Shown here piece by piece: positions 936 through 63,324 of a stretch of 64,000 nucleotides of DNA. The stretch's first letter is position 1; every line of letters begins with the position of its first letter. The notes below the pieces were generated by a model, which made no database searches, was not told the origin of the DNA, and saw only the letters and a program-made list of their open reading frames with translations. Origin of the DNA: Candidatus Magnetominusculus xianensis (GTDB taxonomy: Bacteria > Nitrospirota > Thermodesulfovibrionia > Thermodesulfovibrionales > Magnetobacteriaceae); contig LNQR01000001.1 in NCBI GenBank assembly GCA_001541255.1, forward strand, positions 1 through 64,000, read 5' to 3'. The position numbers and the translations under genes were made by a program.

Positions 936-940
936 CACTG

Positions 941-1453: not shown

Positions 1454-1457
1454 TGGG

Positions 1458-4950: not shown

Positions 4951-5049
4951 GTTATCCTCCTGAGTTTTATTTTACAACCTTGATTTTAGGATAACAAATA
5001 GTTTGACCCTGAGTATGTCGTCTGAATTACATACCCTGTGTAATTCAAA

Positions 5050-6698: not shown

Positions 6699-6747
6699 AT
6701 GACTTACTTTTCACAAAATCAGGCATAGCTTGTCAAGCTAAAACAAA

Positions 6748-8661: not shown

Positions 8662-11600
8662 TATATAGCTGCCCCCACAGCTTGCGCTATTTCTCTGAGC
8701 TTGACCAGCGCATCCTCATAATCAAAATTCGCTATACTTGCCTGCACCCTTTTTGCCGACGTTCCATGTCCCACAGACTTAAGCATATCAACTACGCCGT
8801 CTATCATATCGGCGGCCTGTGAATCGTCATCCGCCAAAAATGCCGCAAGTTTGCTCATCTCAACAGTGAGGACATTCATGTTCACAGCAACTGCCGCCTT
8901 TGCCGCTTCAACCCCTTGCGGCATCCCTATTGAAATCCTGCCCAGAAGGTCATAGAGTTCCATCTCTGTCTCTTCAATCGCCTGTGGCAGGGCATCTGCC
9001 TCACCCCTGTTTAAAATACCTTCTACATTAGCCGCCAACCCGAACATCTTGGTTGCCCCGATGTTACCGGCAAGCCCCTTTAGTGTGTGGGCCTCACGTG
9101 TTGCCGTTTCAGTATCGTTTATGTCTATGGCCGATTTAATCCTTGTTATTACGTCTGACTGTGTCTCCTTAAAACGCCCGATTAGTTTACGCAGCAGTGT
9201 TATGTTACCGCCAACGCGGTTTAAGGCAGTTTCTATTTCAAGGCCGTCTATCTTTGGCAATGTGCTGTCTTTTGCCGACGCGTTGACCACGCTTAGTTCA
9301 GCCGATTCAGCAACGGCGTTCTTCGGCTTTACCCAGCAGGCCAATGTCTCAAAGAGCTGCCCTATATCAATAGGTTTGCCAATATGAGCGTTCATCCCGC
9401 ACTCAAGACACTTTTCCCTGTCTCCGGCCATAGCATTGGCAGTCATGGCCAGTATGGGAAGTTCAGCAAACCGTTTATCCTCCCGAATCCTGCGTGTGGC
9501 CTCAAAGCCGTCCATCACAGGCATCTGGCAATCCATAAGCACAGCATCATATGGGGCAAGTCCAACTTTCTCAACTGCCTCCACACCATTACCGGCAACA
9601 TCTACACGCATCCCCGCGCCCTCGAGAATCTCAAGCGCCAGTTCCTGATTGACAGGGTTGTCCTCAACAAGCAATATGTATGCGCCACGCATGAGCTGTT
9701 CAGCCTCTTTGAAATTATCCTGCTTATGTTGTTTGCGTTGGCGCTGACCGGCACTTTTGCCAAAGGAGTTAAGTATACTGTCAAGCATCGTTGATGGGCT
9801 TACGGGTTTGACCAGCAGCCCTTCTATCCTAGTGCCCTGTAACTGATACATCAGCTCGTCTTTGCTGTATGCTGTAACCATTATAAACGATGGTGTGTTG
9901 GATAGATTTGCATCTGCACGAATGCGCCTTATGGCTTCTATACCGTCCATCTCAGGCATCTGCCAGTCCATAAGCACAAGCCCATATGGTTTGTGTTCAG
10001 TGCGTGCACGCTCAAGTTCAGCAATAGCCTCCATGCCGCTGTTTACGGCTGCTGCTTCAAAATTCAGGGCAACTAACATAGAAAGCATAATTTCTCTGGC
10101 GCTTGAGTTATCGTCAACTACCAGAATGCGCAGTCCCTGCATGTCTGCAGTTGCGTCTGAGAGTATGCGCTGTCCGGTTTGCACTCCGAATTTAGCGGTA
10201 AAATAAAACGTACTGCCAACACCAGGGGTACTCTCTACACCGATTTCTCCATCCATCATCTCTACAAGGCGCTTACTGATTGTAAGCCCCAGTCCCGTGC
10301 CCCCGTACTTGCGCGATGTAGAGCCGTCTGCCTGAGAAAAGGCCATAAATAATTTCTTGCGCTGCTCTTCGGTAAGGCCAATCCCAGTGTCTGTAACATT
10401 GAAACGCAGCCATATTTCAGACGATGAGTCAATGGCACAGGCAGCGGCGCGCTGTACTCCAACTGTGACTTCTCCCTTTTCAGTGAATTTCACGGCATTA
10501 TTGACAAGGTTAGTCAGCACCTGCCCAAGCCTCAGCGAATCACCTATCAGGGCAGACGGCACATCGGTTCCTACGTCAAAAATCAGCTCTAATCCCTTGT
10601 CCTGAGCCTTTATTACTGAGACATCAGCAAGGTTTTCCATAACGTCGTCAAGATAGAAGTCTGCATTTTCAAACTGCAGCTTGCCAGCCTCTATTTTGGA
10701 GAAATCAAGTATATCGTTAATAATACCCAGGAGATTCTTGGCGGCAGATTCCACTTTTTCAATATAGTTACGCTGTTTTGCATCGAGTTTTGTCTGCAGC
10801 GCCAGATGTGACATGCCAATAATGGCATTCATCGGGGTGCGGATTTCGTGGCTCATATTTGCAAGGAAATCTGACTTCATCTTGGTTGCTTCCTCTGCAA
10901 TTTCTGTAGCGCGCCGCAACTGCGTCACATCAAAAAACCAGCCCAGTATGCAGTCGTCACCTGCATATTTTACGTGGATATATGAACACATCACCCAGAT
11001 ATCCATGTGATCTGCTGTCCTTATGCCAATCAGCTGGTTAAGTATGTCTTCACCGCTGCCCAGCCGCTCTGTTATTTCGTCAAAGACCCGCTCGTCCTGG
11101 TAGAACTGCCGTGGAGTAAGTCCGGCGATTTCTTCCAAAGTGGCATGAAGCATCTTTGCATATGACTGGTTAGCAAAGATAATCATACGCGTTTTGGCAT
11201 TAATAATGCGTACCGCCACAGGGCTGGACTCCAGCATATAGCGCATCAGGCGCTCATTTTCGCGTATGGTGTCTTCGGCTTGTTTGGCCTCGGTGATGTC
11301 CTGCGTTACACCGTACATGTCTGTTGCTTTACCGTTTGCGTCTCTTACCACACGGCCAAGCGCGTGAATCCAGACCACACGTCCATCGATGGGGCGCTTA
11401 TAGGCATAGATTGCGTTATATTCCGGCACTCGTCCCTCAACTGCCGCATGAAAGTTCTCAAGCGTCTTTTCTGAGGCTGCCTTATCTCCGGCTTCAACAT
11501 TTACAAACCATTCTTCCATAAGGCTATAGCGCCATCCCTCGCGCGGTATATCGCCAAACACATTTACTGACCGCTCTGATGAGTTATACCAGCCAGAGCC

Positions 11601-13343
11601 GTCCAGAGGGACATGCCAATAGCCTGCCTTTGCCAGGTCAAGCGCCTGGTCACTTAGGAAACCGGCCAGACGTATCTGCTCTTCAGTCCTCCTACGGTCT
11701 GTAATATCATGAAACACGATGACTGAGCCTACTATTTGGTCTGCCTTGTACACCGGAGTGGTTGAATATTCTACCGGCAGCGGCGTACCGTCCTTGCGCC
11801 ACAGTACTTCAGTGTCAATCTTTCTGGGCAGCCCGTCCTGACTTGTCAGAAACATGGAACATTCACCTATGGGAAAGACACCGCCGTCTGGATATGCGTA
11901 GTGCATTAGCCTGTGCATACGCTCCCCTATTAGTTCATCTTCGGTATAGCCTAGTAATAGCGGGACGGCAGGGTTTACAAAACTCATCCTCCCGTCTGTG
12001 TCCAGACCTACGATGCCGTCACTTACAGAGGTCAGAATCAGACGGCTTCGCTCCTCGGCGTGAGCCAGAACTTCTTTGCTTGCCTCTAAATCATCACCGC
12101 GTGCCTTCAACTGCGCTTGAGAAAGTGCAAGGTCTCTTGCCGTGGCCTGGCTTATTTCAAGTAGTTCACGAGTTTCGATATTTGCCGAGAGTATCTCTAT
12201 ATTCATCGCTATAACAGGAAGCATGGTATAGAGGAATCCTTTATGTCTTTCGTTAAATTCCCCCAGCGTTCCAAGCTCTATAACTGCCTGAACCTCTCCT
12301 TTATGTAGTATCGGGACTATCAGGACATTTCTGACAGCAAGCCTCCCTAACCCAAAAGGTACGGCTATATTATCACCAGTTGATAAATCCAGAGAAACCA
12401 CACGCTTGTCAAGTGCGGCTTGTCCGACAAGTCCCTGGCCCAAATTAATTGTCTGCCCGCCGTCAACATCCTCACAGGCATATCCGCCATATCTAAACAA
12501 AGATTTACGTGTCTGGTCACATACATAAAACGCGCCGTATACCAGATTCATGACCGGAGCCAGACTTGATATAAGTACGCTGCCAAAATCTTTATACGTC
12601 TTGCATGTCTGCAGCGCCTGAGCGATTTCCGTCTGCCGCGATTTCTCATCTGAATCTATCCGGACGCTCTCTGCCTGAACCTGCTTTGCACTGTAGTCTT
12701 TGTATGTCTTCAGGAGCTTAAGCCATGAGCCAATCATTACAATGATAACTATGAGCATAATTATGATAGTAGTATATACACGCTTTTGCTGCTGTTCGAT
12801 GGCATCTTTAATTGCAGTCTTCATGAATACGACAGCTTTATTAATACCTTCGTGATATAAGGTCTCTTGCCCAACATATTGACTGCTGGATAATAAGGCT
12901 GCCGCCTCTTTTAATTTACCTTCGTTGACTAAATTAAAGGATTGTCTTTCCATTTTGACAAGCTCAGAGTTAGCTGCGTCTGTTGATGCAATACTGTTGA
13001 CAAGCTGTTTTTCCGGCAATAGTTTCATTGCCTCTTTGATAGCTGCATCAAGAACGGGGACGGCATCTGAATACCGCTTTTCCCACTGCTGATCACCGGA
13101 AGCAGCCCCCATGCGGGCAGACATTGTCAACACCTCATCCTTTTCCAGGATAATGCCGACAAGCTCCTGAAGGCGAAAATACTTTGCCTTTACCAGACCA
13201 ATATCCCTGATAGAAGCAAAGCTCTGCCACATTACTACGGCAAAAAACAGCAGCGTAGAAAGTAGTACTACGATGAACAATCTTTTCGGGCTTTTCGGGC
13301 TTTTCGGGCTTTTCGGGTACACAACCCCTTTATCGGAAGCCAT
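8661..13343 (-). CDS. hybrid sensor histidine kinase with GAF, three PAS, two REC and HPt domains
   Basis: This 1560-residue phosphorelay protein has two membrane helices (about 22-41 and 190-208) flanking a helical periplasmic domain. A GAF domain (about 245-385) and three PAS domains (about 430-550, 565-690, 695-810) follow. The HisKA domain has phospho-accepting H832 in SHEIRTPMN, and an HATPase extends to about 1052 with a GGTGLGL lid. Two receivers carry D1126 and D1271, and the C-terminal HPt has H1419. All phosphotransfer residues are present. The N-terminus carries a fourfold Pro-Lys-Ser repeat. The output regulator is unknown. The 6748 gene is coupled downstream. Confidence 0.95.
13282..13317. 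repeat. four perfect 9-bp tandem repeats (CTTTTCGGG)
   Basis: CTTTTCGGG occurs four times in a row inside the 5' end of the hybrid kinase gene and encodes a repeating Pro-Lys-Ser. The unit is a multiple of three, so copy-number change would lengthen the cytoplasmic N-terminus without a frameshift. Confidence 0.9.
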
Positions 13344-13392
13344 CAGGCAATTATACCAGATTTATTAGCAATATTTATATCGGCACGCGCAG

Positions 13393-14349
13393 TTAAGCGT
13401 ATGAACCGGTTCTCTCTACCCGCCGCGCAATTTCACTGGCGTAGCGAACTCCAACCGTAGAGGCATGTTCCTTTAGCCATTGGGTAAGACTTGTCTGACC
13501 AGTCGGCTGAGAACGTACGTACAGCAGATTACTCTTGAGGCCTTCTATCTCCTCCCGTGTAATCAGTATATCCCCTGTTATTTGTTTCATAAACCTGCCG
13601 AAGTAATATCCCAGGTCGTCTGAGATAGGCACGATTCGCCTTCGCTTGCCGATGATTTCCCCGATGGTTTCAACCAGCTCTCTAAAGGCAAAGGTCTCAG
13701 GGCCTATGGCGTCTATAATTATATTTTCCTTTATCTTACCCATGTCAATGGCCAGCTCTGCAAGGTCTTTGACATATATGGGCTGCAGCTTGTAGCTGCC
13801 ATCACCGAATATGCCAAACATGGGAAAATTCCTCAGAGACCATGCGATATTGTTGATTAAAATATCCTCCCTGCCGAACAAGACCGCAGGGCGCAAAATG
13901 GCGTAGGACATCCCGGAGTCAACCAGCGCACGCTCCAGCCTTGCCTTCCCGCTGAAGTACTCCAGAGGTGAGTCCTCTTTTGGATTTGTTATGCTTATGT
14001 GGACAATCCGCTTGACTCCGGCCTTTTTAGCCGCATCAAAAAGTGTCAGCGTGTTGTCAACGGCATCTGCATGTTTAAACAGCTTATGATTAAACCTGAC
14101 CCAGTATGTGTTATACAAGCAATCGGCGCCCTTGAGTGTGTCTGTGAGGAGTTCAGGTTTGTCAAAATTAAACGGAAACACCTCGATGTTGCCGCCAAAA
14201 GAATTAGGCCGGTCGGGCGAATTAGTTATGGTCTTCACTTTAACCCCGGCGTGTATCAGCAATTTAGCAATATACTTACCTGAATATCCAAATGCCCCTG
14301 TAACTACATGAACCCCTGATACTGCACCAGTACCGATTTGATATTTCAT
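13393..14349 (-). CDS. NmrA-like NAD(P)-binding Rossmann protein
   Basis: The 318-residue protein has an N-terminal dinucleotide-binding motif GAFGYSGKYIA after strand VHVVTG, then the atypical short-chain dehydrogenase pattern of the NmrA and complex I 39-kDa subunit type (VKRIVHISITNP, LRPAVLFGREDIL). The canonical YxxxK is absent; YFSGK at the equivalent place may substitute. The substrate is unknown. I start it at ATG 14349, which has AGAGGGA upstream; the ORF extends to 14445 without a ribosome-binding site. It is divergent from the rubrerythrin gene. Confidence 0.82.
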   Translation of the reverse strand: MKYQIGTGAVSGVHVVTGAFGYSGKYIAKLLIHAGVKVKTITNSPDRPNSFGGNIEVFPFNFDKPELLTDTLKGADCLYNTYWVRFNHKLFKHADAVDNTLTLFDAAKKAGVKRIVHISITNPKEDSPLEYFSGKARLERALVDSGMSYAILRPAVLFGREDILINNIAWSLRNFPMFGIFGDGSYKLQPIYVKDLAELAIDMGKIKENIIIDAIGPETFAFRELVETIGEIIGKRRRIVPISDDLGYYFGRFMKQITGDILITREEIEGLKSNLLYVRSQPTGQTSLTQWLKEHASTVGVRYASEIARRVERTGSYA

Positions 14350-14475
14350 AATACGTCCCTCTTTATAGTGAGTTAATAACCGCTTATAGATTATAGTAGC
14401 ATATTCAATTTTGAATTTAATACACTTGTGAATTAAATTAAACATATCTGGTATCGTCTGTGTGCTATATTTTTG

Positions 14476-14505
14476 TTGATTATGTCAGAGAGAATAGTCT
14501 ATAGT
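14476..14505 (+). promoter_or_regulatory. promoter of the rubrerythrin gene
   Basis: TTGATT (14476-14481) and TATAGT (14500-14505) are separated by 18 bp, and the second differs from the -10 consensus at one position. The rubrerythrin start is 36 bp downstream. No PerR-like operator was recognised. Confidence 0.5.
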
Positions 14506-14541
14506 TTTTGTCACAATAATTAATCTAAGGGGGTATTGTTT

Positions 14542-15084
14542 ATGAAGAAATTTGTATGTACCGTATGTGGTTATGTGCATGAAGGGTCAGCGCCGCCGGA
14601 TAAGTGTCCACACTGTGGGGCTGCTGCTGATAAATTCATCGAAAAGAGTTCAGAAGGTCTTCAGTGGGCAGACGAACACAGGATAGGTGTGGCAAAAGGC
14701 GTGGATGCAGAGATATTAGAAGGCCTCAGGGCCAACTTTATGGGAGAGTGTACAGAAGTAGGGATGTACCTTGCCATGAGCAGACAGGCCGACAGAGAGG
14801 GACTTCCAGAGGTTGCCGAGGCATACAAAAGGATAGCCTTTGAAGAGGCCGAGCACGCGGCCAGGTTTGCCGAACTCCTCGGTGAGGTATTAGTTGCAGA
14901 CACGAAGGCAAATCTGAAAGCCCGTGTTGACGCTGAAAACGGCGCATGTAAAGGGAAAAAAGACCTTGCCACTAAGGCCAAACAGTTAAACCTCGATGCC
15001 ATCCATGACACTGTACATGAAATGTGTAAAGATGAAGCACGTCACGGTCAGGCATTCGAGGGGTTGTTAAAGAGATATTTTTAA
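14542..15084 (+). CDS. reverse-type rubrerythrin (rubredoxin domain first)
   Basis: The 180-residue cytoplasmic protein carries an N-terminal rubredoxin-like iron site (C6, C9, C22, C25) and a C-terminal ferritin-like diiron four-helix bundle with [20 protein letters not shown] and DEARHGQAF. The rubredoxin-first order is the reverse of classical rubrerythrin and is typical of peroxide-reducing enzymes in anaerobes. The expected role is removal of hydrogen peroxide with electrons from an NADH-dependent reductase. ATG 14542 is chosen because AAGGGGG sits eight bases upstream; a TTG two codons earlier is less likely. Confidence 0.93.
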
Positions 15085-15150
15085 TTCCAATCTGTACTAA
15101 CACAGCGCAGGGGTAAGTCTTACTATGGGGCAAGTCTTAGCTGGGTCTTT

Positions 15151-17034
15151 GTGATCTTAGACGAGGTAGTGCTTTTTTTGCGAAAAGTGCCGCCCTTTCA
15201 GTTTCTTAGCGAAAGGGCACTCAGCGGCATGATTAAGGGTATAGCATCAGAGTTTTACCCGAAGGGAGCCGTAATTGCCAGAAAGGGCGGTCAGGGTGAT
15301 GACTATCTGTACGTCATAAGAAAAGGCGGGGCAAAGAGGTCTTTAGACTATGGAGGGCAAGAGGTGTTAGTCGATTACAAGGGCGAAGGCGATGTATTCG
15401 GCTACCTTTCTCTCTTTGGCGAGGATGTGCCCTGGACCAACATCACGGCCATAGATGACACCATATGCTATCTGATGGGAAAGGACAGGATTAAAAACCT
15501 CATCGATACGGACGATGAGGCAAGGAAACTGTTCTCAAGGTCATTTTTACACACCTCTGATGCCGTTAAGCAAGACCAGTTTACCTATAGCTGCGGTGAA
15601 AAGATACTCTTTAGCACCCATGTTGGAGATGTGGCAAAGAGGAATCTTGCAACTGCCCCGGAGAACATATCCATCAAAGAGGCAGCCAGGATTATGACCG
15701 AACGTCACACTGGTTCCCTAATATTCCTCAATAAACAGGGCGCCCCTATCGGTATTGTTACTGACAGTGACATGCGCAACAAGGTAGTCGCACAGGGCAT
15801 GGATGTAAACGCGCCGGTTAGTACAGTGATGAGCAGTGATCTGCACACTGTAGACGCCGGGGACTATTGCTACGAGGCAGTCCTAAAGATGGTCAAAAAT
15901 AACATACACCATCTCGTGGTATTGAAAGAACAACACCTGTGGGGCATACTAACAAATCACGACCTGATGCTTTTGCAGGGCACCTCTGCACTTGCCATAG
16001 TACGAAATATTGAGAGCCAGTCATCTGTCAACGGGCTTATTCCCGTCTCCGGCAAGATAGACGGCGTCTACAACATGCTCCTTAGCGACGGTGCCAAGGC
16101 CAGTAATATCCTGAGAATCATCGCTGAGATAAATGACAGGCTCGTAAGAAAGGTAATAACGCTGACCGAAACAGAACTAGGTCCACCGCCGGTGGCCTAT
16201 GCATGGATAGTTTATGGCAGTGAGGGCAGGAAAGAACAGACATTTAAGACCGACCAGGACAATGCGATTATCTATGGTGACCCAGCAGATGAACATGAAG
16301 CCCATGCCGCAAGGGACTATTTCTCACGTTTTTCGGCATTAGTGCGCGATGGTCTACTCAAAGTAGGCTTTCCGGCGTGCCCTGCCAACTACATGGCCTC
16401 TAATCCTATATGGCGTCAACCGCTTAAAATTTGGAAAAAGTATGCTATCAAATGGACTGCCACTCCTACGCCGAAGGCCGTTCTTAACACTGTAACGCTC
16501 TTTGACTCCAGGGCTATTTATGGAGATGAGAGCCTGTTAACGGCATTCAGACAGCGTCTTCAGTCCAATATAACCGACAACAGGCTGCTGCTTGGCAAAG
16601 CGGCAAGCCTCTCCATAAGAAACGCCCCACCGATTGGTTTCCTCAAGGCCTTTGTCGTTGAAAAAAGCGGCGAACACAAGGACATGCTAAATCTGAAAAT
16701 AAAGGGAATCACACCGGTAGTTGACCTGCTCAGGCTGTTTACCCTTGAAAAAGGTCTCAGCATAACTCCCACGCTAAAACGCATAGAGGCGCTCATGGAT
16801 ACCCACTCCATAGTAAAAGAGTATGCCGAAGAGCTTGTCCATGCCTTTGAGTTTATCATGCTGCTGAGAATCCAGCACCAGTATGAAAAGATAAGAAAAG
16901 GTCTGCCGCCGGATAACTTTATCATGCCAGATAAACTGACAAATCTTCAGAAAAGAACAATCAAGGAGGCATTTCAAATCATAGCAAAAATACAGGCTAC
17001 GGTCATAGAGCGCTACAGAGATATGATATGGTAA
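15151..17034 (+). CDS. cNMP-binding/CBS/DUF294 nucleotidyltransferase-like protein
   Basis: The 627-residue protein has an N-terminal cyclic-nucleotide-binding-like domain (about 12-120) and two CBS motifs (about 165-285). A DUF294 nucleotidyltransferase-like domain follows with GSEGRKEQTFKTDQDNA near 352-371, then the DUF294 C-terminal helical domain. The GlnD-like active-site aspartates (TDQDN) are present, so nucleotidyl transfer to a protein partner is possible, though the family is untested. It begins with GTG and has no clear ribosome-binding site, so the start is provisional. It leads an operon with an exonuclease, DUF485 and an acetate-type symporter, a recurrent arrangement suggesting control of solute uptake. 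Confidence 0.88.
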   Translation: MILDEVVLFLRKVPPFQFLSERALSGMIKGIASEFYPKGAVIARKGGQGDDYLYVIRKGGAKRSLDYGGQEVLVDYKGEGDVFGYLSLFGEDVPWTNITAIDDTICYLMGKDRIKNLIDTDDEARKLFSRSFLHTSDAVKQDQFTYSCGEKILFSTHVGDVAKRNLATAPENISIKEAARIMTERHTGSLIFLNKQGAPIGIVTDSDMRNKVVAQGMDVNAPVSTVMSSDLHTVDAGDYCYEAVLKMVKNNIHHLVVLKEQHLWGILTNHDLMLLQGTSALAIVRNIESQSSVNGLIPVSGKIDGVYNMLLSDGAKASNILRIIAEINDRLVRKVITLTETELGPPPVAYAWIVYGSEGRKEQTFKTDQDNAIIYGDPADEHEAHAARDYFSRFSALVRDGLLKVGFPACPANYMASNPIWRQPLKIWKKYAIKWTATPTPKAVLNTVTLFDSRAIYGDESLLTAFRQRLQSNITDNRLLLGKAASLSIRNAPPIGFLKAFVVEKSGEHKDMLNLKIKGITPVVDLLRLFTLEKGLSITPTLKRIEALMDTHSIVKEYAEELVHAFEFIMLLRIQHQYEKIRKGLPPDNFIMPDKLTNLQKRTIKEAFQIIAKIQATVIERYRDMIW

Positions 17035-55099: not shown

Positions 55100-56398
55100 T
55101 TATCCGACGCGCTGCTGCTTGCGCGATACCTTGTCGTCGTACATGCGTTTGTCGGCCTCTTTAAGGGCAGATGGGATGTCTCCGGCGCTATAGGCCGTTG
55201 CCGTCCCCAGAGATATAGACACCGGCATGTTGCCGCTGTTCTTGTTATACTGCTCCTGATATATCCTTATACGACCAATTGATTTGGCAGCTAATTCCTC
55301 ATCAGTCATGTTGAGAATAATCAGGAATTCATCTCCACCCGTGCGCGCTACTACATCACTCCCACGAAACGCCATCTTCAGCACATCTGATGCCCCCCTG
55401 ATAAGTTGGTCACCTGCCTCATGTCCGATTGAGTCGTTAACACGTTTCAGGCCGTCAAGGTCTGCTACTATAAAGCTGACCGGAAACAGCGGGCCATTGG
55501 CTATACGTCCTAACTCATCATCGAAGTAAGCACGGTTATAAAGCCCTGTCATGGAGTCGTGCGTGCTTTCGTATTTTAGTTTTTCCTCTTCTCTTTTACG
55601 CTCTGTAATATCCCTGGATATGCCTACGAATTCTTTGATATTCCCATCAGTGCTGATAATAGCCGAGATGACCACCTCTACAGGGATTATCCTTCCATCC
55701 TTGCAAACCTGTTCAATTTCAATCCTCTCGGAAAAGCTGTCTAATGTGCCGGTCTCACTGTAGAACGAAAGTTTCTGCATCAGAATGTCCTGAACATATG
55801 CGTATGACTTCGGCGTCAGGGCCTGGGCAAATTTCTCATTGATGGCCTCATCGACCGTAAACCCTCTCAAAGATGCTATCGACGGGCTTACGTATGTAAA
55901 ACTATCCAGCGAGGCATCAAGCGTCCAGATTACGTCGCTTACACTTTCAGCAATCAGCCTGAATCGCTCCTCGCTCTGCTGCAGCTCTGCCGACATGAGC
56001 TGCAGCTCCATCATGTCTTCATTCAGACGCTCATACGCCTGTTCAAGCTCAGCACGTGACTCACCCAATGTTACCACCATGGTGTTAAAGGCCTCCGCAA
56101 ACTCCCCCATAAATTCAACACGCTGGGAGAAATCACCAAGGGCAATCTGCTTAGTCTGCCATGTAAGGTGTTTTAGGCTTGAGTGGAGTGCCTTCAGGCT
56201 GCCAACAACCGGCCCCATCCCAGCCTGCCCCATCGTTTGGCTGAGGTCACCACTGCTAAGTGCCAGGGTGAAATGCCTGATTGCATCCAGATAGCTGGTA
56301 AGTCTGGCAAGCTGCACAGCATAGTCTACATCCGGAGGTACAACCGGGATGCGGCCTTTGGAAAGCTGCTCAAGAATAGACGCAACTCGCTCGTCCAT
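55100..56398 (-). CDS. HAMP-like/PAS/GGDEF diguanylate cyclase
   Basis: The 432-residue cytoplasmic protein has an N-terminal helical region and a HAMP-like segment (about 60-125), a coiled coil, a PAS domain (about 145-275) and a GGDEF domain (about 285-425). The I-site RGSD lies exactly five residues before the intact GGDEF, predicting feedback-inhibited cyclic di-GMP synthesis. Its ATG overlaps the stop of the V4R gene (TGATG), so the V4R protein may supply the signal. Confidence 0.92.
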   Translation of the reverse strand: MDERVASILEQLSKGRIPVVPPDVDYAVQLARLTSYLDAIRHFTLALSSGDLSQTMGQAGMGPVVGSLKALHSSLKHLTWQTKQIALGDFSQRVEFMGEFAEAFNTMVVTLGESRAELEQAYERLNEDMMELQLMSAELQQSEERFRLIAESVSDVIWTLDASLDSFTYVSPSIASLRGFTVDEAINEKFAQALTPKSYAYVQDILMQKLSFYSETGTLDSFSERIEIEQVCKDGRIIPVEVVISAIISTDGNIKEFVGISRDITERKREEEKLKYESTHDSMTGLYNRAYFDDELGRIANGPLFPVSFIVADLDGLKRVNDSIGHEAGDQLIRGASDVLKMAFRGSDVVARTGGDEFLIILNMTDEELAAKSIGRIRIYQEQYNKNSGNMPVSISLGTATAYSAGDIPSALKEADKRMYDDKVSRKQQRVG

Positions 56399-56931
56399 CA
56401 GTCCTCATTAACAACTGCTGTGAAGCGGCAGGTGCGGTCCCCCGTACACCAGCAGTCAACCTCTTTTACCGTAAAAGACTTACCTGAAAAGCTCTTTAAA
56501 ATAGCGGCAAGAAATCCCTCATCAAAGGTGCATAACTCTACTCCTGTATCAGGCAGCCCTGAGCAGTCCAGGTCCTCTGCCACTGTTACTGTTATACGGC
56601 CATTGTCCAGGTCTGCCTCTTCCACGCGAAGGATACCAATGCCCATATCTTTCAATACGCTCTGAAGTTTCTTGATTAGCTCATTTACATCTCCCTGGGG
56701 CCCGATGAGATTGTCGTAAATCGCCTTGCCCGCCAGAAAACCAGCCTCATGAAACACTCTGTCTGCCTCATCAGCGCCGTAGCGCTCCTCAAGTACATCC
56801 CTAAAACTGTACTGCATCAGACGGTAGACCTCTACCCGCATATTATGACCAAGATTAGGACGTCCTAATTCTAAATCCCCAAGCAAATCCCAATTGAACT
56901 TGTACTTGCGATTAATAATGCCCTCCGGCAT
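56398..56931 (-). CDS. V4R-domain sensor protein
   Basis: The 177-residue protein has the V4R (4-vinyl-reductase-like) fold in its C-terminal two thirds, ending in VDCWCTGDRTCRF, where the CxC and Cys are typical metal or ligand sites. V4R modules bind small hydrophobic or tetrapyrrole ligands. AAGGAGG upstream of ATG 56931 fixes the start. A 13-bp tandem repeat lies just before. It is translationally coupled to the diguanylate cyclase, a pairing that suggests ligand-controlled c-di-GMP synthesis. Confidence 0.88.
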   Translation of the reverse strand: MPEGIINRKYKFNWDLLGDLELGRPNLGHNMRVEVYRLMQYSFRDVLEERYGADEADRVFHEAGFLAGKAIYDNLIGPQGDVNELIKKLQSVLKDMGIGILRVEEADLDNGRITVTVAEDLDCSGLPDTGVELCTFDEGFLAAILKSFSGKSFTVKEVDCWCTGDRTCRFTAVVNED

Positions 56932-56944
56932 ATACCACTCCTCC

Positions 56945-56970
56945 TTTGTGTTTGGTCTTTGTGTTTGGTC
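56945..56970. repeat. 13-bp perfect tandem duplication
   Basis: TTTGTGTTTGGTC is repeated exactly in tandem in the leader of the V4R gene, next to its ribosome-binding site. Confidence 0.9.
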
Positions 56971-57077
56971 ACTCTGGTGTCTCGCACACACCGCATGTCA
57001 TCTTACCAACTGCTTGCAATAGTAACATATCTCACTTTATTGATGCAATACCTGGTGCATCATAAATAAATTGGCGC

Positions 57078-57989
57078 TTACTGTACTACCGCACTCATGC
57101 ACTTATAGGCGAGTTCTTTAATGGCTACTGAAAACGGTGACATTGGTTCGCTGAGAATTGCAGGTTTTGTCTTGAATAACGCGCGTTTTACGGCTTCGTC
57201 TGCTGGCAGTGTTATCATGACCTTTGCGTTTAAGTTTGTGTACTGCTTTACAAGGTTTTGGATTACCATGCCCGTGCTAACATCCCGCGCAGATTGAACC
57301 ATGTTGATAATAAAACTGGGGGTGAAGCGCGCAATTTTATTACGGGCAGATTCCACAGCCTTTTCGTCTATTTTTTCTGCCTCTTTGAGGAACTTTTCTA
57401 TAGTGTTTAAATGGGGATTTGCATCGACATCCTTTGCCTTGTCTATGAGTTCTGTGAACTGGTCGGCATATGTCTCCTTAAAATGAAATGTCAACAGCCT
57501 GAATATCGCTGTTTTAATAAAACCATATGCCTTCATCAATGATGTCACCTCGGGGGTGGTCACCAAAAGCCCGATTTGAGCTATGAACATAAAATCTACT
57601 ACGTTGTAGGCCGAACCCGCAGATAAATCCAGAATCACTACATCGCAGTCAAGTTTTGAAATGTGTCCTATCAGCTTGAGCTTCTGCTGGAATGGCATAT
57701 TGGCTATATCGGGGATTTTAGAGCCTCCGCAGATGAGCTTTAAGTTCGGTATATCTGTTTCGATGAGCGCCTTATCAAGGGTTTTTATATGTTTAAGGAC
57801 AAAATCGTCAAGGGAATAATCGTAACTCCTTACCCCCAGGATAACATGCAGATTTGCTCCACCCAGGTCAAGGTCAACGGCAATTGTCTTCTTGCCAGTG
57901 GCGGCTATAGCGATGGCAAGGTTGGCAGATATGGTGCTTTTTCCAACGCCCCCTTTTGGCCCTACTATGGCAATAACTTTCTTTGGCAT
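57078..57989 (-). CDS. MinD/ParA-type ATPase
   Basis: The 303-residue P-loop ATPase has the deviant Walker A GPKGGVGKST at 10-19, switch I DLDLGGANLHVILG and switch II VVILDLSAGSAYNVVDF. A helical insertion (about 185-225) and a C-terminal region without an obvious MinD amphipathic tail follow. FlhG, MinD and ParA are relatives; it positions or partitions a cellular structure. It is the last gene of an apparent operon with a receiver-like protein and an actin-like ATPase, and not with flagellar or par genes, so its cargo may be the actin-like filament. Confidence 0.88.
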   Translation of the reverse strand: MPKKVIAIVGPKGGVGKSTISANLAIAIAATGKKTIAVDLDLGGANLHVILGVRSYDYSLDDFVLKHIKTLDKALIETDIPNLKLICGGSKIPDIANMPFQQKLKLIGHISKLDCDVVILDLSAGSAYNVVDFMFIAQIGLLVTTPEVTSLMKAYGFIKTAIFRLLTFHFKETYADQFTELIDKAKDVDANPHLNTIEKFLKEAEKIDEKAVESARNKIARFTPSFIINMVQSARDVSTGMVIQNLVKQYTNLNAKVMITLPADEAVKRALFKTKPAILSEPMSPFSVAIKELAYKCMSAVVQ

Positions 57990-58016
57990 GTTATACGCTC
58001 CTGTCCATAATGTATT

Positions 58017-58535
58017 TCACTTTATATTGAGAAATCCTATAAGATTATCCAGCAGGACATCTGACTCAGATTGCCTTTTCTGCCCGGCAGCGGTATCGGT
58101 AAGGAGCATTTTAACTTTTGAGGCTATCAGCACAGGGTCAAACGGGGTATCCATACACCAGTCACTTACCACATCTTTTAAAATCGACGAATCCCTGCTC
58201 TCTGAGTTCCCTATAGCTAATACTTTAAATAGCAGCGCCTGCGCAAATAAATGTACACAGGAATTCCTGAATTTATCCAGTTCCCCTTGAAAATATCCCT
58301 TTGTATCCAGTACCACAACTGCTGGCTTATCCCTGGTAATCGTCTCTGTTGTATAGAGCAAATTCTTAAGCAGTATAGGCTCATGCTGTCCGCTGCTATG
58401 GTATGCAACTGGATATGTCGCGCCTGACGGCGTACCGCCTGTTGACACGGGAACATCAACCCATTTCTCAAGTGCCTTCTGTATCATGCTTCCTCTAATA
58501 GTATCGGCTGAAAAAACTACTATCTTAAGAGGCAT
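58017..58535 (-). CDS. receiver-like protein of unknown function
   Basis: The 172-residue product begins PLKIVVFSADTIRGSMIQKALEKW and has KPAVVVLDTKGYF and FKVLAIGNSES followed by a PFDPVLIASKVKMLLTD tail, the alternating beta/alpha pattern of receiver domains. The acidic pair at the first strand is missing and only one Asp lies at the expected phospho-site, so phosphorylation is doubtful. It is sandwiched between the actin-like and MinD-like genes, with gaps of about 20-27 bp, and may link the two. It is too diverged to name. Confidence 0.6.
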   Translation of the reverse strand: MPLKIVVFSADTIRGSMIQKALEKWVDVPVSTGGTPSGATYPVAYHSSGQHEPILLKNLLYTTETITRDKPAVVVLDTKGYFQGELDKFRNSCVHLFAQALLFKVLAIGNSESRDSSILKDVVSDWCMDTPFDPVLIASKVKMLLTDTAAGQKRQSESDVLLDNLIGFLNIK

Positions 58536-58557
58536 TTTTACCGTTGACAGCCCTGTG

Positions 58558-59814
58558 TTAACGAGACTCTGCCATGGCCATTACCAATGCACCTTTGGCT
58601 GTGGCATTAAGTGGTTCTCTTGCTACCCTGATTGAGGATATCTCAATCGGCAGCCTGATAGCATTGAGGGCCTTCTCAAATTTTTCCTTACAACCTTTCG
58701 GCATGGATGTGCCGCCGCTTAACACTATTGGAATTGGTTCGATGATCTTTGGGATATGATCAGAGGATGTTATCACATCCTGAATACTCCTTACGAGGTG
58801 ATTGATAAGGTCGTTATAATAGAGGTGCATGGTCAGCTCCAGCTTGTTTTTAGGCAATACGGAGAGGTCCAAAGACTCTTCTTTGATGACCTTTATCTTC
58901 GTGGCAGGCTCACCTACCTCAAGGCTAGACATCTCATCGATATAATCCCCACCCTTCTGAATACTGTACGTGATTACCGGTACAGACAAATATGACAGAC
59001 ACACATTACACATACCACCGCCCATGCTTATCCCAATGCCGGTGAAGTTTTCATCCGCCAGCTCGGACATCACCACAGCGAGGCCCTCGTTTATTGAAAC
59101 AGGCGTGTAACCAAGCGTCTCCAGATACATCTTGATTATTGATTCATGCCCGGTAATGATTACTTCCTTTTCTATCGGCTGACCGGGGATGCTGAAACAT
59201 ATTATTTCACCAAACTTCTTAGGTTTTTGAATCAGGGTGTTGATTATAGACTGTATGACGATAACAGCCTCGTCTTCACGCGGGCTTAGGAGACCTTTCT
59301 CCATCGATTTTCTCGTGTTGGAGTTAAACATATTGGCAAAGCCCTCAGCTGAGTAGCCGATTATATAGTAGCGCTTGTTATGTTCGAAAAACATGACATT
59401 GTTTTGTGTGAGTATCTGCTTGGTGAATTTGGACTGAGGTATTGTAAAAAACGCATTGAGCTGCTTAACCATTTGTATCTTATTGCCCTTGTTCTGAGCC
59501 ATGACTATGTTGCTTGTGCCAACGTCAAGTCCTACCGGACCCCATGGGCTTTCAGGTTCACCACCTACCCCCATCTCATGTGTAACAGTGGGTTTCTGGG
59601 CTGCCCTTACTGCTGATTCTATTTGCTGGTCTGAGACACTTGGCGGAGCTGGAGATGACTCCACGCGTGGAAGCTCAAATCTTATCGTATCGGGAGGCCT
59701 GCTTTGAGCTGGGGCTGCAACTACGTCAGCAGGCGGCGCGGGCGGAGTTTCAATCTCAGTAAGTCGCTGCTTTAACTTCTCTATCTCTTTTTGATAATCG
59801 CTTGCTTCTGCCAT
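58558..59814 (-). CDS. atypical actin-like ATPase with N-terminal coiled coil
   Basis: The 418-residue protein has a short coiled coil (about 8-22), a Pro-rich linker to about 90, then an actin/MreB/FtsA-fold domain. Phosphate-1 is VGLDVGTSN (94-102) and the adenosine motif is PIVLSGGTSMPKG (362-374). In phosphate-2 (261-270) the canonical catalytic Asp and Thr are replaced: ISMGGGMCNV. It should polymerise or bind nucleotide, but hydrolysis may be weak. It leads a trio with the receiver-like and MinD-like genes. Similar actin-like proteins occur in magnetosome clusters (MamK, Mad28), but orthology cannot be judged here. Confidence 0.85.
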   Translation of the reverse strand: MAEASDYQKEIEKLKQRLTEIETPPAPPADVVAAPAQSRPPDTIRFELPRVESSPAPPSVSDQQIESAVRAAQKPTVTHEMGVGGEPESPWGPVGLDVGTSNIVMAQNKGNKIQMVKQLNAFFTIPQSKFTKQILTQNNVMFFEHNKRYYIIGYSAEGFANMFNSNTRKSMEKGLLSPREDEAVIVIQSIINTLIQKPKKFGEIICFSIPGQPIEKEVIITGHESIIKMYLETLGYTPVSINEGLAVVMSELADENFTGIGISMGGGMCNVCLSYLSVPVITYSIQKGGDYIDEMSSLEVGEPATKIKVIKEESLDLSVLPKNKLELTMHLYYNDLINHLVRSIQDVITSSDHIPKIIEPIPIVLSGGTSMPKGCKEKFEKALNAIRLPIEISSIRVAREPLNATAKGALVMAMAESR

Positions 59815-59905
59815 ATTAATCCTCCATATTTTAGTATATCTCTATTCATCTCTATTTGTTCAGTTGCATTAAGTCGAAACTTGTGTTATCTTAAACGTGC
59901 AGTAG

Positions 59906-59935
59906 ATATTAATGCTATTTTACCTGTGTTGTCAA
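59906..59935 (-). promoter_or_regulatory. promoter of the actin-like gene trio
   Basis: On the minus strand TTGACA (59930-59935) is followed after 18 bp by TAATAT (59906-59911), about 90 bp upstream of the actin-like start. The 7-bp inverted repeat ATTTTAC/GTAAAAT (about 59917-59942) overlaps the -35 and could bind a regulator. The same TATTTTACTTGACA string is present at the SQR promoter. Confidence 0.5.
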
Positions 59936-59977
59936 GTAAAATATTTAAAATGTAAGGTAAGTTATTAAGCTAATACT

Positions 59978-61996
59978 GTGAAAAAAAACGATATGAAAGA
60001 GACCCTCGGCAGCGCTGAGAAGTCCCACAGCCATCAGATGCCGCTAGCCCCAGTTGCAGCGGAACTTCCCACTCCAAGGAAAGTATCCCAAAAAGTAATT
60101 GTCACCGGCCTGCCAAACAGCGGCAAGAGCCAGATATTTAACAACCTCACAGGTGAATACTCAATAGTTGCCAACTACCCCCTATCGACCGTATGCGTAA
60201 AACAAGGGCAATTCCGCATGGGCGATGAACAATATGAGGTCTATGACACGCCCGGGCTTTACTGCCTGTTCATCCATTCGGAGGACGAACTCGTAGTGCG
60301 TGACTTGATATTTCAGGAAAAACCTGATGTGTTACTTTTATGTATCGATGCAAACCTGCTTAAACAATCGCTTGCCCTGGCCGCCGACCTCATAGAGCTT
60401 CAAATCCCAATGGTAATAGCGATAAACGCCATAGATGAGACCGCAAGAAAGGGTCTGTGGATAGACTCCGCCACGCTGTCTCAAATCACCGGAGTTCCAG
60501 TGGTTGAGTCTATCGCTATAAAGGGAATCGGCACGAACAAGCTCAAAAGCGCGATTCAAAAGGCACGCGTTGGGAGCCTTTCAATTCACTACGGCGATAT
60601 TATGACAAGGGGCATCTCCACTGTGGAATCTCTTCTGCCTGAGGCACTTCCATATAAGCATAAAACGTCTATGTTAGCGCTGCTTAACGACCCTTTTCTG
60701 GATAACTACTTAATAGATAATGTCCCCGAAGAACAGCTCCAAAAGATACAAGACACTGTAGACGAGATTCAGGACTATTTTAAGGGTAATCTTGCCAGAA
60801 CCATAAATCATAAACGGGCAGAATGGGTAGATTCCGTAACAGAAAAGATAATCAGAAGGCAGGTGGCATTTGCAGGAAGGGTATCTGAGACGATTGCCCG
60901 GATGTGCCGGTCAGTAGTTTTTGGCGTGCCGATTCTTATGGGCATTATAGTTATCACATATTTTTTGGTTGTAAACGTAGCCGACTGGCTGTCTAAACGA
61001 CTGGATGCTATTCTTTGGGCACCGGTGCAGGAATACCTGAATGCGCTTATTCCATATCCATTTTGGAATGAATTCTTTATAGGCCAATACGGGGTGCTAA
61101 CGCTTGGTGTTGCGGGGGCAATATTAACAGTGCTGCCTATACTTTCGGTATATTTTATTTTATATAACATACTGGAGGACGTGGGATATATACCGAATCT
61201 AAGTGTCCTGTCAAGGCGCGTATTCGATAAAATAGGCTTGAGCGGGGCGTCGATTATGCCAATGGTGCTGGGGTTTGGGTGCAAGACAATGGCCACGCTT
61301 ACCGCAAAGACGTTGACATCGCCGAAGGAAAGGTATATTACCACCTTCTTAATAGCGTTTGCCCTGCCCTGCGCCCCGCAGATTGGGCTTAATATGAGTC
61401 TTTTGGGCAAAGTAGGGATAACGGCCTTTATCATAACCTTCTCCGTGCTTGCCACCATAGAGGCAGTAACCGGTCTCATCCTGAATAAAATTATCAAAGA
61501 GGACGACAAGAACTGTTTTATACAGGCGCTGCCAGCAATCAGAATGCCGAACCTGAAGGCCGTTATTAAGAAGACCTACTACCGTCTGTTCTGGTTTTTA
61601 GAGGAGGCGCTGCCAGCGTTTATGTATGCCGCCATTGCCATGTTTACGCTGGATAAGACAGGGTTATTAAAGGCTTCTAAGGTATTTCTTCAACCTGTAG
61701 TTGAAAGATTTATGGGGCTGCCAACTGAGATGGTAGACGCCCTTATTCTGGTAATCGCAAGGCGGGAGGCCGCCGCTAGTGTGATAATAAAGATGTCTGA
61801 AAACGGACACTTAAATTATGTTCAGAGCATCGTAGCCGTTGTCCTGACCACGATGTTTGTACCATGCATGGCCCATATAGGGATAATCGTAAAACAGCAG
61901 GGATGGAAGTCCACAGTATTTATGGTATTTACGATGACGATTACATCAGTGATTATTGCTGGGATTTTGAACAAACTATTACTATTATTTTTCTGA
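59978..61996 (+). CDS. feoB: FeoB-type ferrous iron transporter, divergent
   Basis: The 672-residue protein has an N-terminal GTPase (G1 GLPNSGKS 44-51, G3 DTPG 90-93, G4 NAID 150-153) and a C-terminal permease with about 8-10 membrane segments. The gate regions are unusual: GFGCKTMATLTAKTL and FALPCAPQIG in place of the usual GFGCN-P-type and SCGARLP sequences. It is thus a FeoB variant, with Fe2+ as the likely but untested substrate. A 40-residue N-terminal extension precedes the GTPase. It starts at GTG 59978 or ATG 59993, neither with a clear ribosome-binding site. It is followed by the FeoA-DtxR regulator. Confidence 0.87.
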   Translation: MKKNDMKETLGSAEKSHSHQMPLAPVAAELPTPRKVSQKVIVTGLPNSGKSQIFNNLTGEYSIVANYPLSTVCVKQGQFRMGDEQYEVYDTPGLYCLFIHSEDELVVRDLIFQEKPDVLLLCIDANLLKQSLALAADLIELQIPMVIAINAIDETARKGLWIDSATLSQITGVPVVESIAIKGIGTNKLKSAIQKARVGSLSIHYGDIMTRGISTVESLLPEALPYKHKTSMLALLNDPFLDNYLIDNVPEEQLQKIQDTVDEIQDYFKGNLARTINHKRAEWVDSVTEKIIRRQVAFAGRVSETIARMCRSVVFGVPILMGIIVITYFLVVNVADWLSKRLDAILWAPVQEYLNALIPYPFWNEFFIGQYGVLTLGVAGAILTVLPILSVYFILYNILEDVGYIPNLSVLSRRVFDKIGLSGASIMPMVLGFGCKTMATLTAKTLTSPKERYITTFLIAFALPCAPQIGLNMSLLGKVGITAFIITFSVLATIEAVTGLILNKIIKEDDKNCFIQALPAIRMPNLKAVIKKTYYRLFWFLEEALPAFMYAAIAMFTLDKTGLLKASKVFLQPVVERFMGLPTEMVDALILVIARREAAASVIIKMSENGHLNYVQSIVAVVLTTMFVPCMAHIGIIVKQQGWKSTVFMVFTMTITSVIIAGILNKLLLLFF

Positions 61997-62016
61997 TTTA
62001 TTCGGCTTTATTCGGC
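61997..62016. repeat. 10-bp perfect tandem duplication
   Basis: TTTATTCGGC occurs twice in tandem, overlapping the feoB stop codon region, and is followed by a similar CCCTTCGG. Confidence 0.85.
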
Positions 62017-62057
62017 GCCCTTCGGGGTGTGATCAACAAACAGGAGGTATCAGTTAA

Positions 62058-62804
62058 ATGAAAAATTCAGTGGAGATAGATGAGTACCTTGAGGCCCTAT
62101 GGCATATGAAAGAGGACGCTAAGACCTCGATAACCGAATTGAAGGCTGAAATAGGGGATAATTTCAGCAAGGAGATATTCTACGAATGTCTTAACGACAA
62201 CCTTGCAGCGGTATCTGATGACGATAAAACAGTAACGCTTACAACAAAAGGCGAGGAGCGCGCCAGACGCATAATCCGCGCCCACAGGCTTGCCGAAAGG
62301 CTGTTGTTTGACGTGATGGGAATGAGTAAAAACATTGAGGAGGGCGCTTGTGAGTTTGAACACATGGTTACGCCAGCCCTTGTTGACAGCATTTGCACAA
62401 TGCTTGGACACCCGAAGGAAAGTCCGCAGGGCCTGCCGATTCCACCCGGTGAGTGTTGTGAAAATGCCACCACTACAATAGAAAGCTCAGTCATACACCT
62501 CACTGAGCTGGAGATAGGACAAACCGCGCGCGTGGCATACGTAAACTGCAGAAAGGACCATGAGCTTCACAGATTAAACGGCCTTCAGATAAGACCCGGC
62601 GTATACATAAAACTCCACCAGACATATCCATCGTTTGTCATCGAGTGCGAAGGGTCTAATATCGCCTTAGATGATGAGATTGCCAATAACATCTGCGTGT
62701 GGCGCGAAAAGAAATATATGTCAAAGACTAATGACGCAGTGAAAAAACGCTCTATCTTCGGACGAGGCATAGGGATATTCAAAAAGTGTAGAAATGTCAA
62801 CTGA
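62058..62804 (+). CDS. DtxR-type metalloregulator fused to FeoA domain
   Basis: The 248-residue protein has an N-terminal winged-helix-like part starting EIDEYLEALWHMKE and a metal-binding/dimerisation part with RAHRLAERLLFDVMG, EEGACEFEH and MLGHPKESPQGLPIPPGECC. A FeoA (SH3-like) domain follows (about 155-220). The helix-turn-helix region is shorter and weaker than in DtxR. It probably senses Fe2+ and controls feoB, or assists FeoB directly. A C-terminal tail of about 30 residues rich in Lys and Arg ends in the sequence that is repeated at 63367. AGGAGGT precedes ATG 62058. Confidence 0.85.
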   Translation: MKNSVEIDEYLEALWHMKEDAKTSITELKAEIGDNFSKEIFYECLNDNLAAVSDDDKTVTLTTKGEERARRIIRAHRLAERLLFDVMGMSKNIEEGACEFEHMVTPALVDSICTMLGHPKESPQGLPIPPGECCENATTTIESSVIHLTELEIGQTARVAYVNCRKDHELHRLNGLQIRPGVYIKLHQTYPSFVIECEGSNIALDDEIANNICVWREKKYMSKTNDAVKKRSIFGRGIGIFKKCRNVN

Positions 62805-62806
62805 GA
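62765..62806 (+). repeat. direct repeat flanking the hicBA module, left copy
   Basis: AGGCATAGGGATATTCA (62765-62781), nine extra bases, and GAAATGTCAACTGAGA (62791-62806) span the end of the DtxR-FeoA gene. The same two blocks recur, joined, at 63367-63399, about 600 bp away beyond hicA. Confidence 0.9.
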
Positions 62807-62872
62807 GAACTAATACTCCAGCGCTTTAACACACGACAAAATGTTAAATTTTCTCAAAACAGGAGGCATATG

Positions 62873-63097
62873 ATGAGCGCTTATAAGTTTTCAGTGATAA
62901 CGGAAAAGAATGGCGAAGGCTATTTTGCTTTCTGTCCAGAGCTTCAGGGATGCTATACACAGGGGGATTCTTATGAAGAGGTTATGGAAAATATCAAAGA
63001 TGCAATTCGTCTCCACATTGAAGATAGAGTGGAAAACGGGGAAGAAATTCCACAGCCTGATTCAGTGAGTCTAACCCTGATGGAAATCGCAGTATGA
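62873..63097 (+). CDS. hicB: HicB antitoxin
   Basis: The 74-residue protein shows the HicB fold (KFSVITEKNGEGYFAFCPELQGCYTQGD, EEVMENIKDAIRLHIEDRVENGEEIP) and no extra DNA-binding domain. It should neutralise the HicA next to it. AGGAGG suits ATG 62873 better than ATG 62870. Its stop overlaps hicA (ATGA). The order hicB-hicA is the reverse of the E. coli hicAB order. Confidence 0.92.
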   Translation: MSAYKFSVITEKNGEGYFAFCPELQGCYTQGDSYEEVMENIKDAIRLHIEDRVENGEEIPQPDSVSLTLMEIAV

Positions 63098-63324
63098 GTG
63101 AGAAACTTCCAAGAGTGACCGCCGCTGATATAATCAAAATATTAGAAATGGTTGGATTTGTCTTTTCGAGACAAAGCGGAAGTCACAAAATATTTAAGAA
63201 TAAGGAAGGAAGGAGGACAACCGTCCCTTATCATTCAGGAAAAATCCTGAATCCGAAAACTTTATCAAGCATTCTCAGGGATGCTGATCTAACCGTTGAG
63301 AAATTCAAAGACCTATTGAGATAA
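63094..63324 (+). CDS. hicA: HicA mRNA interferase toxin
   Basis: The 76-residue protein is a dsRBD-like HicA: VTAADIIKILEMVGFVFSRQSGSHKIF with catalytic His31, then RRTTVPYHSGKILNPKTLSSILRDADLT. It degrades mRNA when free of HicB. It is coupled to hicB by an ATGA overlap. The next 166 bp contain the right copy of the direct repeat and no gene. Confidence 0.93.
   Translation: MSEKLPRVTAADIIKILEMVGFVFSRQSGSHKIFKNKEGRRTTVPYHSGKILNPKTLSSILRDADLTVEKFKDLLR

Follow-up and report, generated by a model that had tools for sequence, protein, structure and literature searches.

The actin-like protein Mad28 forms filaments in vivo and in vitro, and for HCH-1, which is a Magnetominusculus, filament formation by Mad28 and a partial rescue of magnetosome chains in a mamK mutant were reported (PMC10653835). 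Deletion of mad28 in RS-1 misplaces the chains (PMC12748827), and in E. coli Mad28 prefers curvature (PMC12713370); Mad29 has been described in print as a protein with an ATPase domain. Three regions were reported for LBB01 (Ca. Magnetomonas plexicatena), and alike for LBB02: the main cluster, a 2.7-kb feoA-feoB region (homologues of mad30 and mad17) and a 2.6-kb region with mad28, mad29 and a hypothetical gene; the distances between the regions printed for LBB01 are 1.7 Mb and 276.8 kb (PMC9376291). In the Nitrospirota XS-1, mad30, mad17, mad28 and an unknown gene stand together on one contig (PMC10278575). As mad17 and mad30 are assigned to feoA and feoB differently between papers, feoAB is used here. 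The present analysis of a 64,000-nt stretch of Candidatus Magnetominusculus xianensis (contig LNQR01000001.1, positions 1–64,000; the whole stretch is called the window) bears on how deep-branching magnetotactic bacteria hold their chains at a given membrane face. Three of its genes encode an actin-like ATPase, a receiver-like protein and a MinD/ParA-type ATPase. It is nearly certain that they are a mad28–(pseudo-receiver)–mad29 unit, and a unit that places magnetosome chains is probably the best explanation of the locus as a whole.

The mad28–mad29 unit and its pseudo-receiver

All three genes lie on the minus strand. The gene of the 418-aa actin (58558..59814) is followed after 22 nt by that of a 172-aa protein (58017..58535) and, after a further 27 nt, by that of a 303-aa MinD/FleN-type ATPase (57078..57989), in agreement with the tight spacing described in an earlier note on this DNA. 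The family sample comprised 19 genomes, the source genome (G000) and 18 relatives. The note had proposed searching relatives for conserved co-occurrence, and a contiguous actin-receiver-MinD trio in the same order and on the same strand was recovered in 15 of the 19, the source genome included (G000, G001, G003–G009, G011, G013–G017), as well as in one further Nitrospirota genome outside the family (G040). Because order and strand recur in this way, the association exceeds chance, and judged from these genome sequences the genes form a conserved unit. The gap between the actin and receiver genes is 0–25 nt in all 16 trios, and that between the receiver and MinD genes ranges from -1 to 150 nt in 15 of them and reaches 287 nt in G040. 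Among named relatives, those closest to the window actin come from Nitrospirae bins and from Candidatus Magnetominusculus sp. LBB02. LBB02 (Ca. Magnetominusculus linsii, G004), a member of the same genus, carries the same trio in the same order, with identities to the window proteins of 88% for the actin (over the part present), 50% for the receiver and 86% for the ATPase. Some 0.6 kb separate the trio from man1-mamK in G007, and in G040 trio and mamK share one 63-kb contig, about 22 kb apart. The gene observation of the earlier note was thus correct and its hunch good, but its undescribed system had already been described: mad28, a hypothetical gene and mad29, as well as the feoAB region, appear in the published account of LBB01 and LBB02 (PMC9376291).

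The actin-like protein matches PF25216 (Volactin) with 274.7 bits (cut-off 35), starting at residue 94. MreB_Mbl scored 11.7 bits, under its cut-off, and no FtsA or PilM Pfam model scored; with the tree, this led us to reject an identity as MreB, FtsA or PilM, and the grouping with such ordinary proteins that the earlier note had considered was not observed. Identity with MamK was likewise rejected, as the protein reached 34 bits against the NCBIfam model NF040964 (cut-off 400) and stands on a separate tree branch. The tree comprised 62 rows: 15 of the 16 trio actins (the contig-cut copy of G004 was omitted), 11 of 15 actins linked to a penicillin-binding protein (PBP; see below), selected deltaproteobacterial actins and four MamK rows, with no MreB row. 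In this comparison with MamK and Mad28, which the note had also proposed, the window actin is split from the four MamK rows by a 100/100 branch. The 15 trio actins, four actins beside man1-mamK and three others share one branch (100/97). The phosphate-2 motif carries Ser in 57 of the 58 PF25216-type rows, the window included (Thr in L151), and Asp in all four MamK rows; Ser instead of Asp is a printed feature of Mad28 (PMC10653835). The protein is therefore distinct from MamK and MreB, has the phosphate-2 Ser and belongs to a magnetosome gene set, all as in Mad28. The link to the magnetosomes of deep-branching magnetotactic bacteria, of which the note had been reminded, is borne out, the actin being Mad28 itself. 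A PDB sequence search with the actin gave no match at E ≤1, and its AlphaFold model (mean pLDDT 51) was not used.

The ATPase matches the Pfam families CbiA (61.7 bits, cut-off 25.4) and ParA (49.2, cut-off 27.1), as well as AAA_31. Its deviant Walker A motif is intact in an alignment of 16 sequences (KGGVGKS, KGGIGKS in two); in the PDB its sequence is matched best by FleN, followed by archaeal MinD and after that by other site-determining proteins. Against the bacterial MinD model TIGR01968 it scored 80.6 bits, under the cut-off of 212.9. As an ATPase-domain protein in the mad28 region it corresponds to Mad29 by Pfam and by printed position, a membership set by description and not by a reference sequence.

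No Pfam family matches the 172-aa middle protein. The typical residues of a receiver are an acidic pair that follows strand 1, a phosphoacceptor Asp and the Lys of a KP motif. The AlphaFold model of the middle protein, built on 10 sequences (mean pLDDT 77.2, pTM 0.70; residues 28–49 and 150–159 unreliable), shows five strand-helix units and a C-terminal helix. Foldseek matched it to 196 PDB chains at E ≤0.001; the best 50 of the 196 are nearly all receivers, with PhoP first (1mvo, 1.5e-7) and the FrzS and CpaE receivers among them, and a profile of the middle-protein family reaches ordinary receivers at E ~1e-9. An alignment of 28 members was read by eye; it held the 16 trio receivers, the receiver of the deltaproteobacterial bin G566 and 11 of 15 PBP-fused ones, and the G012 receiver was omitted. 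Asp77 stands at the phosphoacceptor place in 27 of the 28, with Glu in one; Pro131 is invariant, and the preceding Lys of the KP motif is found in none. The place of the acidic pair behind strand 1 holds no more than one acidic residue (Asp, Glu or Asn at position 11), and Ser9 is invariant. The (βα)5 fold of receivers is thus predicted by model and Foldseek, and the full set of acidic pair, Asp and KP Lys is absent. A canonical receiver was rejected on the missing KP Lys and on the Pfam Response_reg model, which appeared in one of the 28 members at a best E of 0.027. The degenerate receiver seen in the earlier note is therefore well described, with the fold predicted, the Asp kept and the KP lysine lost. 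On the predicted structure, the middle protein is a pseudo-receiver, and its residues indicate that it has probably lost ordinary phosphorylation. The 16 stand-alone trio receivers end in a short conserved tail of the L..L..xL type; the PBP fusions carry no such tail and continue into the enzyme. As far as found, the pseudo-receiver identity of the hypothetical gene between mad28 and mad29 is new: in the main texts of open-licence literature no work was recognised as identifying the receiver or the PBP-fused pair.

The source genome comprises 3,593,273 bases on 152 contigs, and a contig other than that of the window (C3) carries mamK (469.4 bits, NCBIfam cut-off 400) together with man1, a mamP-type gene with two magnetochrome motifs, and mamM-, mamA- and mamQ-type genes; of these names only mamK was given by a model score, the others being our reading. 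Because mamK, magnetochrome and the mam/man genes are present there, the source organism is, by gene content, a magnetotactic bacterium. The statement in the earlier note that no mam gene is present holds for the window and does not extend to the genome. MamK and magnetochrome were each over cut-off in 16 of the 19 family genomes. Those without one or the other are bins 56–84% complete, and in all 12 family genomes of at least 90% completeness both markers were over cut-off.

A second actin-receiver module and the spread of the actin family

A paralogous actin, 57% identical to that of the window, lies on contig C2 of the source genome (L074) and is followed by a fusion of receiver and PBP; the pair of genes occupies 12931–15147 and 15147–16214. 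The fusion begins with a member of the same receiver family and continues through a hydrophobic segment into transglycosylase and transpeptidase domains, as in a class A PBP. An actin gene followed by a receiver-PBP gene was found at 15 loci in 14 of the 19 family genomes, with receiver and PBP in one reading frame at every locus and an actin-receiver spacing of -1 to 54 nt at the 13 loci listed; in G002 the PBP-linked actin is broken by a stop. The PBP Pfam domains were checked in the source genome's copy, and the assignment of the other copies rests on 58–88% identity to it. This PBP-fused sister module is new as far as found. The same contig also carries, about 6 kb from the second actin operon, CRISPR adaptation and type III-like genes (591–8845) with, by eye, apparently two tandem cas1-type genes.

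The PBP-linked actins fall outside the branch of the trio actins, and their own unity is not resolved by the tree. Within that branch, the copy beside mamK and the trio copy are sisters in G014 (99/90) and G016 (98/88), and the mamK-adjacent actins of G013 and G017 nest within their genus. On this phylogeny the actins beside man1-mamK in the four genomes are recent duplicates into the magnetosome cluster; an actin fragment of 83 aa that adjoins man1 where a G012 contig ends was omitted from the tree. Because only 30 of the 59 inner branches carry a star and several terminal branches are long, no deeper branching order is argued.

Actin matches (E ≤0.001) were found in all 19 family genomes and in none of 21 genomes from other families of the order. 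PF25216 exceeded 200 bits in 6 of 148 sampled Nitrospirota genomes, all of this family, in 34 of 193 genomes of the class of G042, and was found at E ≤1e-20 in 10 of 345 genomes of a phylum-wide sample. The actin stands beside an apparent hrpA helicase gene, without a receiver, at the six deltaproteobacterial loci read for this (L049, L050, L057, L060, L064, L065). In the deltaproteobacterial bin G566 (L169, 7647–11121), actin, receiver and PBP are separate genes. Neither MamK nor magnetochrome was over cut-off in G566, and the receiver profile found one genome among the 17 of its class, G566 itself. Because this unfused order comes from a single bin, it could reflect transfer or a mis-binned contig.

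Other partners of Mad28-type actins were noticed. In a deltaproteobacterial magnetosome cluster (L149 of G047, 11546–13277), the gene of such an actin is preceded, at 43 nt, by that of a canonical receiver (89.7 bits), and in L170 (G369) a protein that is STAS-like by eye is encoded upstream of one. In L171 (G445, 6939–13150), a Mad28-type actin stands beside a 416-aa MinD/ParA-domain protein, a ParA-like gene and an apparent ParB.

MamK itself calls for similar care. The NCBIfam MamK model was over cut-off in 18 deltaproteobacterial genomes without magnetochrome over cut-off, and MamK-like actins such as Bbp occur in bacteria without magnetosomes (PMC10580974); MamK alone is therefore not used as proof of magnetotaxis, and neither a Mad28-type nor a MamK-type match by itself may prove it. 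The tandem MamK-type genes of L173 (G195, 7881–10734; 459.9 and 375.7 bits against the cut-off of 400), which come from a genome lacking magnetochrome, are a further warning against MamK as sole marker.

Iron genes and other neighbours

The trio faces two plus-strand genes across a divergent control region of 163 bp (59815..59977), as the earlier note had read it. The nearer one (59978..61996; 672 aa from the first possible start) encodes FeoB, with FeoB_N (150.2 bits, cut-off 27), Gate (74.6, cut-off 29.6) and FeoB_C over cut-off, and a score of 310.2 bits against TIGR00437, just under its cut-off of 315.65. The true start may lie further in, since most relatives match only from residue 23–37 on. 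By orthology it corresponds to the feoB whose location agrees with that printed for LBB01. The second gene (62058..62804, plus strand) encodes a 248-aa protein in which a DtxR-type metal-binding domain (PF02742, Fe_dep_repr_C, 80.7 bits, cut-off 27) is fused to FeoA (PF04023, 43.2 bits, cut-off 23). No N-terminal DNA-binding Pfam model matched it at E ≤1, and DNA binding is only presumed.

The control region holds conserved blocks in six aligned genus members, which are not seen in G012 (L115). A promoter-like site of the actin operon, TTGACA-18-TAATAT (59906..59935, minus strand), emerged from a consensus scan and the alignment: TTGACA is kept in all six, TAATAT in five, with TACTAT in L042. 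The scan alone means little, since it returned 12 sites in the region, where shuffled sequence gave 14.8. Iron co-regulation of the trio may be supposed from this arrangement.

FeoB is next to the trio in G000, G001, G003 and G006, and also in G004, where the contig breaks within the actin gene; in G012 its neighbour is the receiver-actin pair, and in G011 it is 3.5 kb away from the trio. In seven trio-bearing genomes of other genera (G007, G008, G013–G017) the orthologue is away from the trio, on another contig or, in G014, 1.7 Mb off. No FeoB match at E 1e-60 or better was obtained in G005 and G009, and the search did not take in G002. The meeting of actin and ATPases with iron uptake that had caught the attention of the earlier note is real as adjacency and confined to some lineages. 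G014 is a single contig of 3,273,455 bases, with the trio near 406 kb, FeoB at 2,146,185–2,148,098 and MamK at 2,425,480. FeoB is 1.74 Mb from the trio and 277 kb from MamK, which roughly fits the distances printed for LBB01. In a deltaproteobacterium (L153 of G322, 1597–3907), a PF25216 actin gene is followed on its own strand, after 433 bp, by a DtxR-FeoA gene, which may be coincidence.

The Pfam scan of neighbours covered 55100–63324. After the trio, on the same strand, come a V4R-domain protein (56398..56991; PF02830, 48.7 bits) and a PAS/GGDEF protein (55100..56398; GGDEF 109.2 bits), whose genes overlap by one base. Both are neighbours at the level of the genus, standing beside the trio in five of its six trio-bearing genomes (V4R is absent from G004), and they hint at a c-di-GMP link. 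A HicB/HicA-type toxin-antitoxin pair (62870–63324), common to G003, adjoins the DtxR-FeoA gene. An Rfam scan of the window gave no match at gathering scores.

Proposed function, alternatives and known systems

In the proposed scheme, Mad28 would form the filament, the MinD/FleN-type Mad29 would serve as a nucleotide-driven positional switch, and the pseudo-receiver would be the adaptor joining filament and ATPase; together the three would bring the chains of magnetosomes to the right face of the membrane. The divergently encoded FeoB and DtxR-FeoA would be a magnetosome-associated ferrous iron uptake system with a metal sensor, whose genes have stayed next to the trio in the genus. Lying between mad28 and mad29, the pseudo-receiver is an obvious candidate linker, and we infer the link from the second module, because there a homologue is physically joined to a PBP. 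By this analogy the case for an adaptor role is about evenly balanced, and coupling of the Mad29 ATPase to the filament may be supposed.

Several observations weigh against this scheme. Of the four family genomes without a trio, G002 and G018 yielded the wall-linked actin only, and G012 has a receiver followed by an actin at a contig end. G010 has a tandem actin pair and, at a separate place, genes for MinD, a 178-aa protein and a divergent actin, arranged in this sequence. Since G018 is 93% complete with MamK present, and since G010 (92% complete) has an actin without an adjoining receiver, the trio is not strictly required. An amphipathic C-terminal tail is known of MinD and CpaE; by eye, no MinD-like tail was seen in the 16 aligned ATPases, and the protein ends shortly past the last conserved block. 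Nor is the receiver a universal partner of these actins, because its profile found no member in the deltaproteobacterial loci L048–L068 and L070. In RS-1, Mad28 bound Mad25 alone in a two-hybrid set that did not include Mad29 (PMC12748827), and no published experiment on this receiver or on Mad29 was found. Weak PF25216 matches (about 18–38 bits, two just over 35) occur in 14 Nitrospirota genomes outside the family. Among 44 PF25216-bearing deltaproteobacterial genomes, 20 show neither of the two markers (MamK and magnetochrome) over cut-off, MamK alone is found in 18 and magnetochrome in 6, and the actin family is therefore not tied to magnetosomes everywhere. A missing marker in a bin can reflect incompleteness, and 8 of the 20 have partial magnetochrome under cut-off; the MamK-less G223 is a single contig of 2,800,286 bases. 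Such close actin relatives in deltaproteobacteria without either marker over cut-off are new as far as found. The absence of magnetosome genes from non-magnetotactic Nitrospirota, as reported in PMC9376291, agrees with our Nitrospirota result, to which the deltaproteobacterial one adds a caveat.

These relatives, the second module with its class A PBP in 14 family genomes and the unfused order in G566 lend some weight to an alternative in which the actin-receiver pair is a general cytoskeleton of cell shape or envelope, the ATPase positions wall growth or division, and magnetosome use is indirect. Haloarchaeal volactin, the namesake of the Pfam family, does affect cell shape (PMC10869688). We consider this unlikely, given that the PBP-linked actins lie outside the trio-actin branch, that actins of the trio type duplicate into the magnetosome cluster beside mamK, and that loss of mad28 in RS-1 alters chain position (PMC12748827). 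Distinctly less probable still is a pole-marking pair of receiver and MinD/FleN ATPase for pili or flagella, similar to CpaE/TadZ or FlhG, with the actin incidental. FleN gives the best PDB sequence matches of the ATPase and CpaE receivers match the fold of the pseudo-receiver, but no pilus or flagellar gene was met among the scanned window neighbours (the search for such genes covered no other locus), no feature is more constant than the tight coupling of actin and receiver, and the ATPase lacks a visible amphipathic tail, which CpaE has (PMC13170226). The proposal of the earlier note, an undescribed iron- or vesicle-positioning organelle system apart from magnetosomes, could draw on the divergent iron genes of five genus genomes (one across a contig break) and of G012. 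We find it scarcely credible, as the genes are printed members of magnetosome sets (PMC9376291, PMC10278575) and the iron genes lie elsewhere in the seven genomes of other genera named above, each of which has a trio. The idea of an iron organelle with no relation to magnetosomes was rejected on the MamK and magnetochrome of the family and on the printing of the trio as mad28/mad29 (PMC9376291).

Beyond the placing of chains by the mad28/pseudo-receiver/mad29 unit, a broader idea may be offered tentatively, with somewhat less than an even chance of being right. A Mad28-type actin and a pseudo-receiver could form the core of a modular cytoskeleton whose outputs are exchangeable: in the magnetosome module a MinD-type ATPase, and in a sister module of the same cells a class A peptidoglycan synthase, joined by fusion. 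Such a core would be older than magnetosomes or separate from them, and the curvature preference of Mad28 would be inherited from an envelope-guided actin. The presence, in one and the same genome, of a like pair attached to a cell-wall synthase suggests where this preference could have arisen.

Compared with described systems, MamK shares with the window actin the actin superfamily and the magnetosome gene set, and differs in model score, in tree branch and in its phosphate-2 Asp. Haloferax volactin belongs, over cut-off, to the same Pfam family, but is archaeal and has a shape function. TadZ/CpaE, the positioning protein of a pilus machine, likewise combines an atypical receiver with a deviant-Walker ATPase of the MinD/ParA type (PMC13170226). 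It is, however, one fused chain with an amphipathic tail, whereas the window has two separate genes, no visible tail and an actin in addition. Mad28 can occur as several divergent copies, and the PBP-linked actin may be one of them, although the consulted part of that report mentions no receiver or PBP partner (PMC10653835). The small cluster of XS-1 has iron genes beside mad28 and an unknown gene, as do the window and G012, whose locus L115 has the same arrangement; unlike the window, this small cluster has no mad29 named in it (PMC10278575). The closest counterparts are LBB01 and LBB02. FeoB adjoins the trio in Magnetominusculus and is 1.7 Mb away in LBB01, and the middle gene, which stays hypothetical in print (PMC9376291), is identified in the window as a predicted pseudo-receiver.

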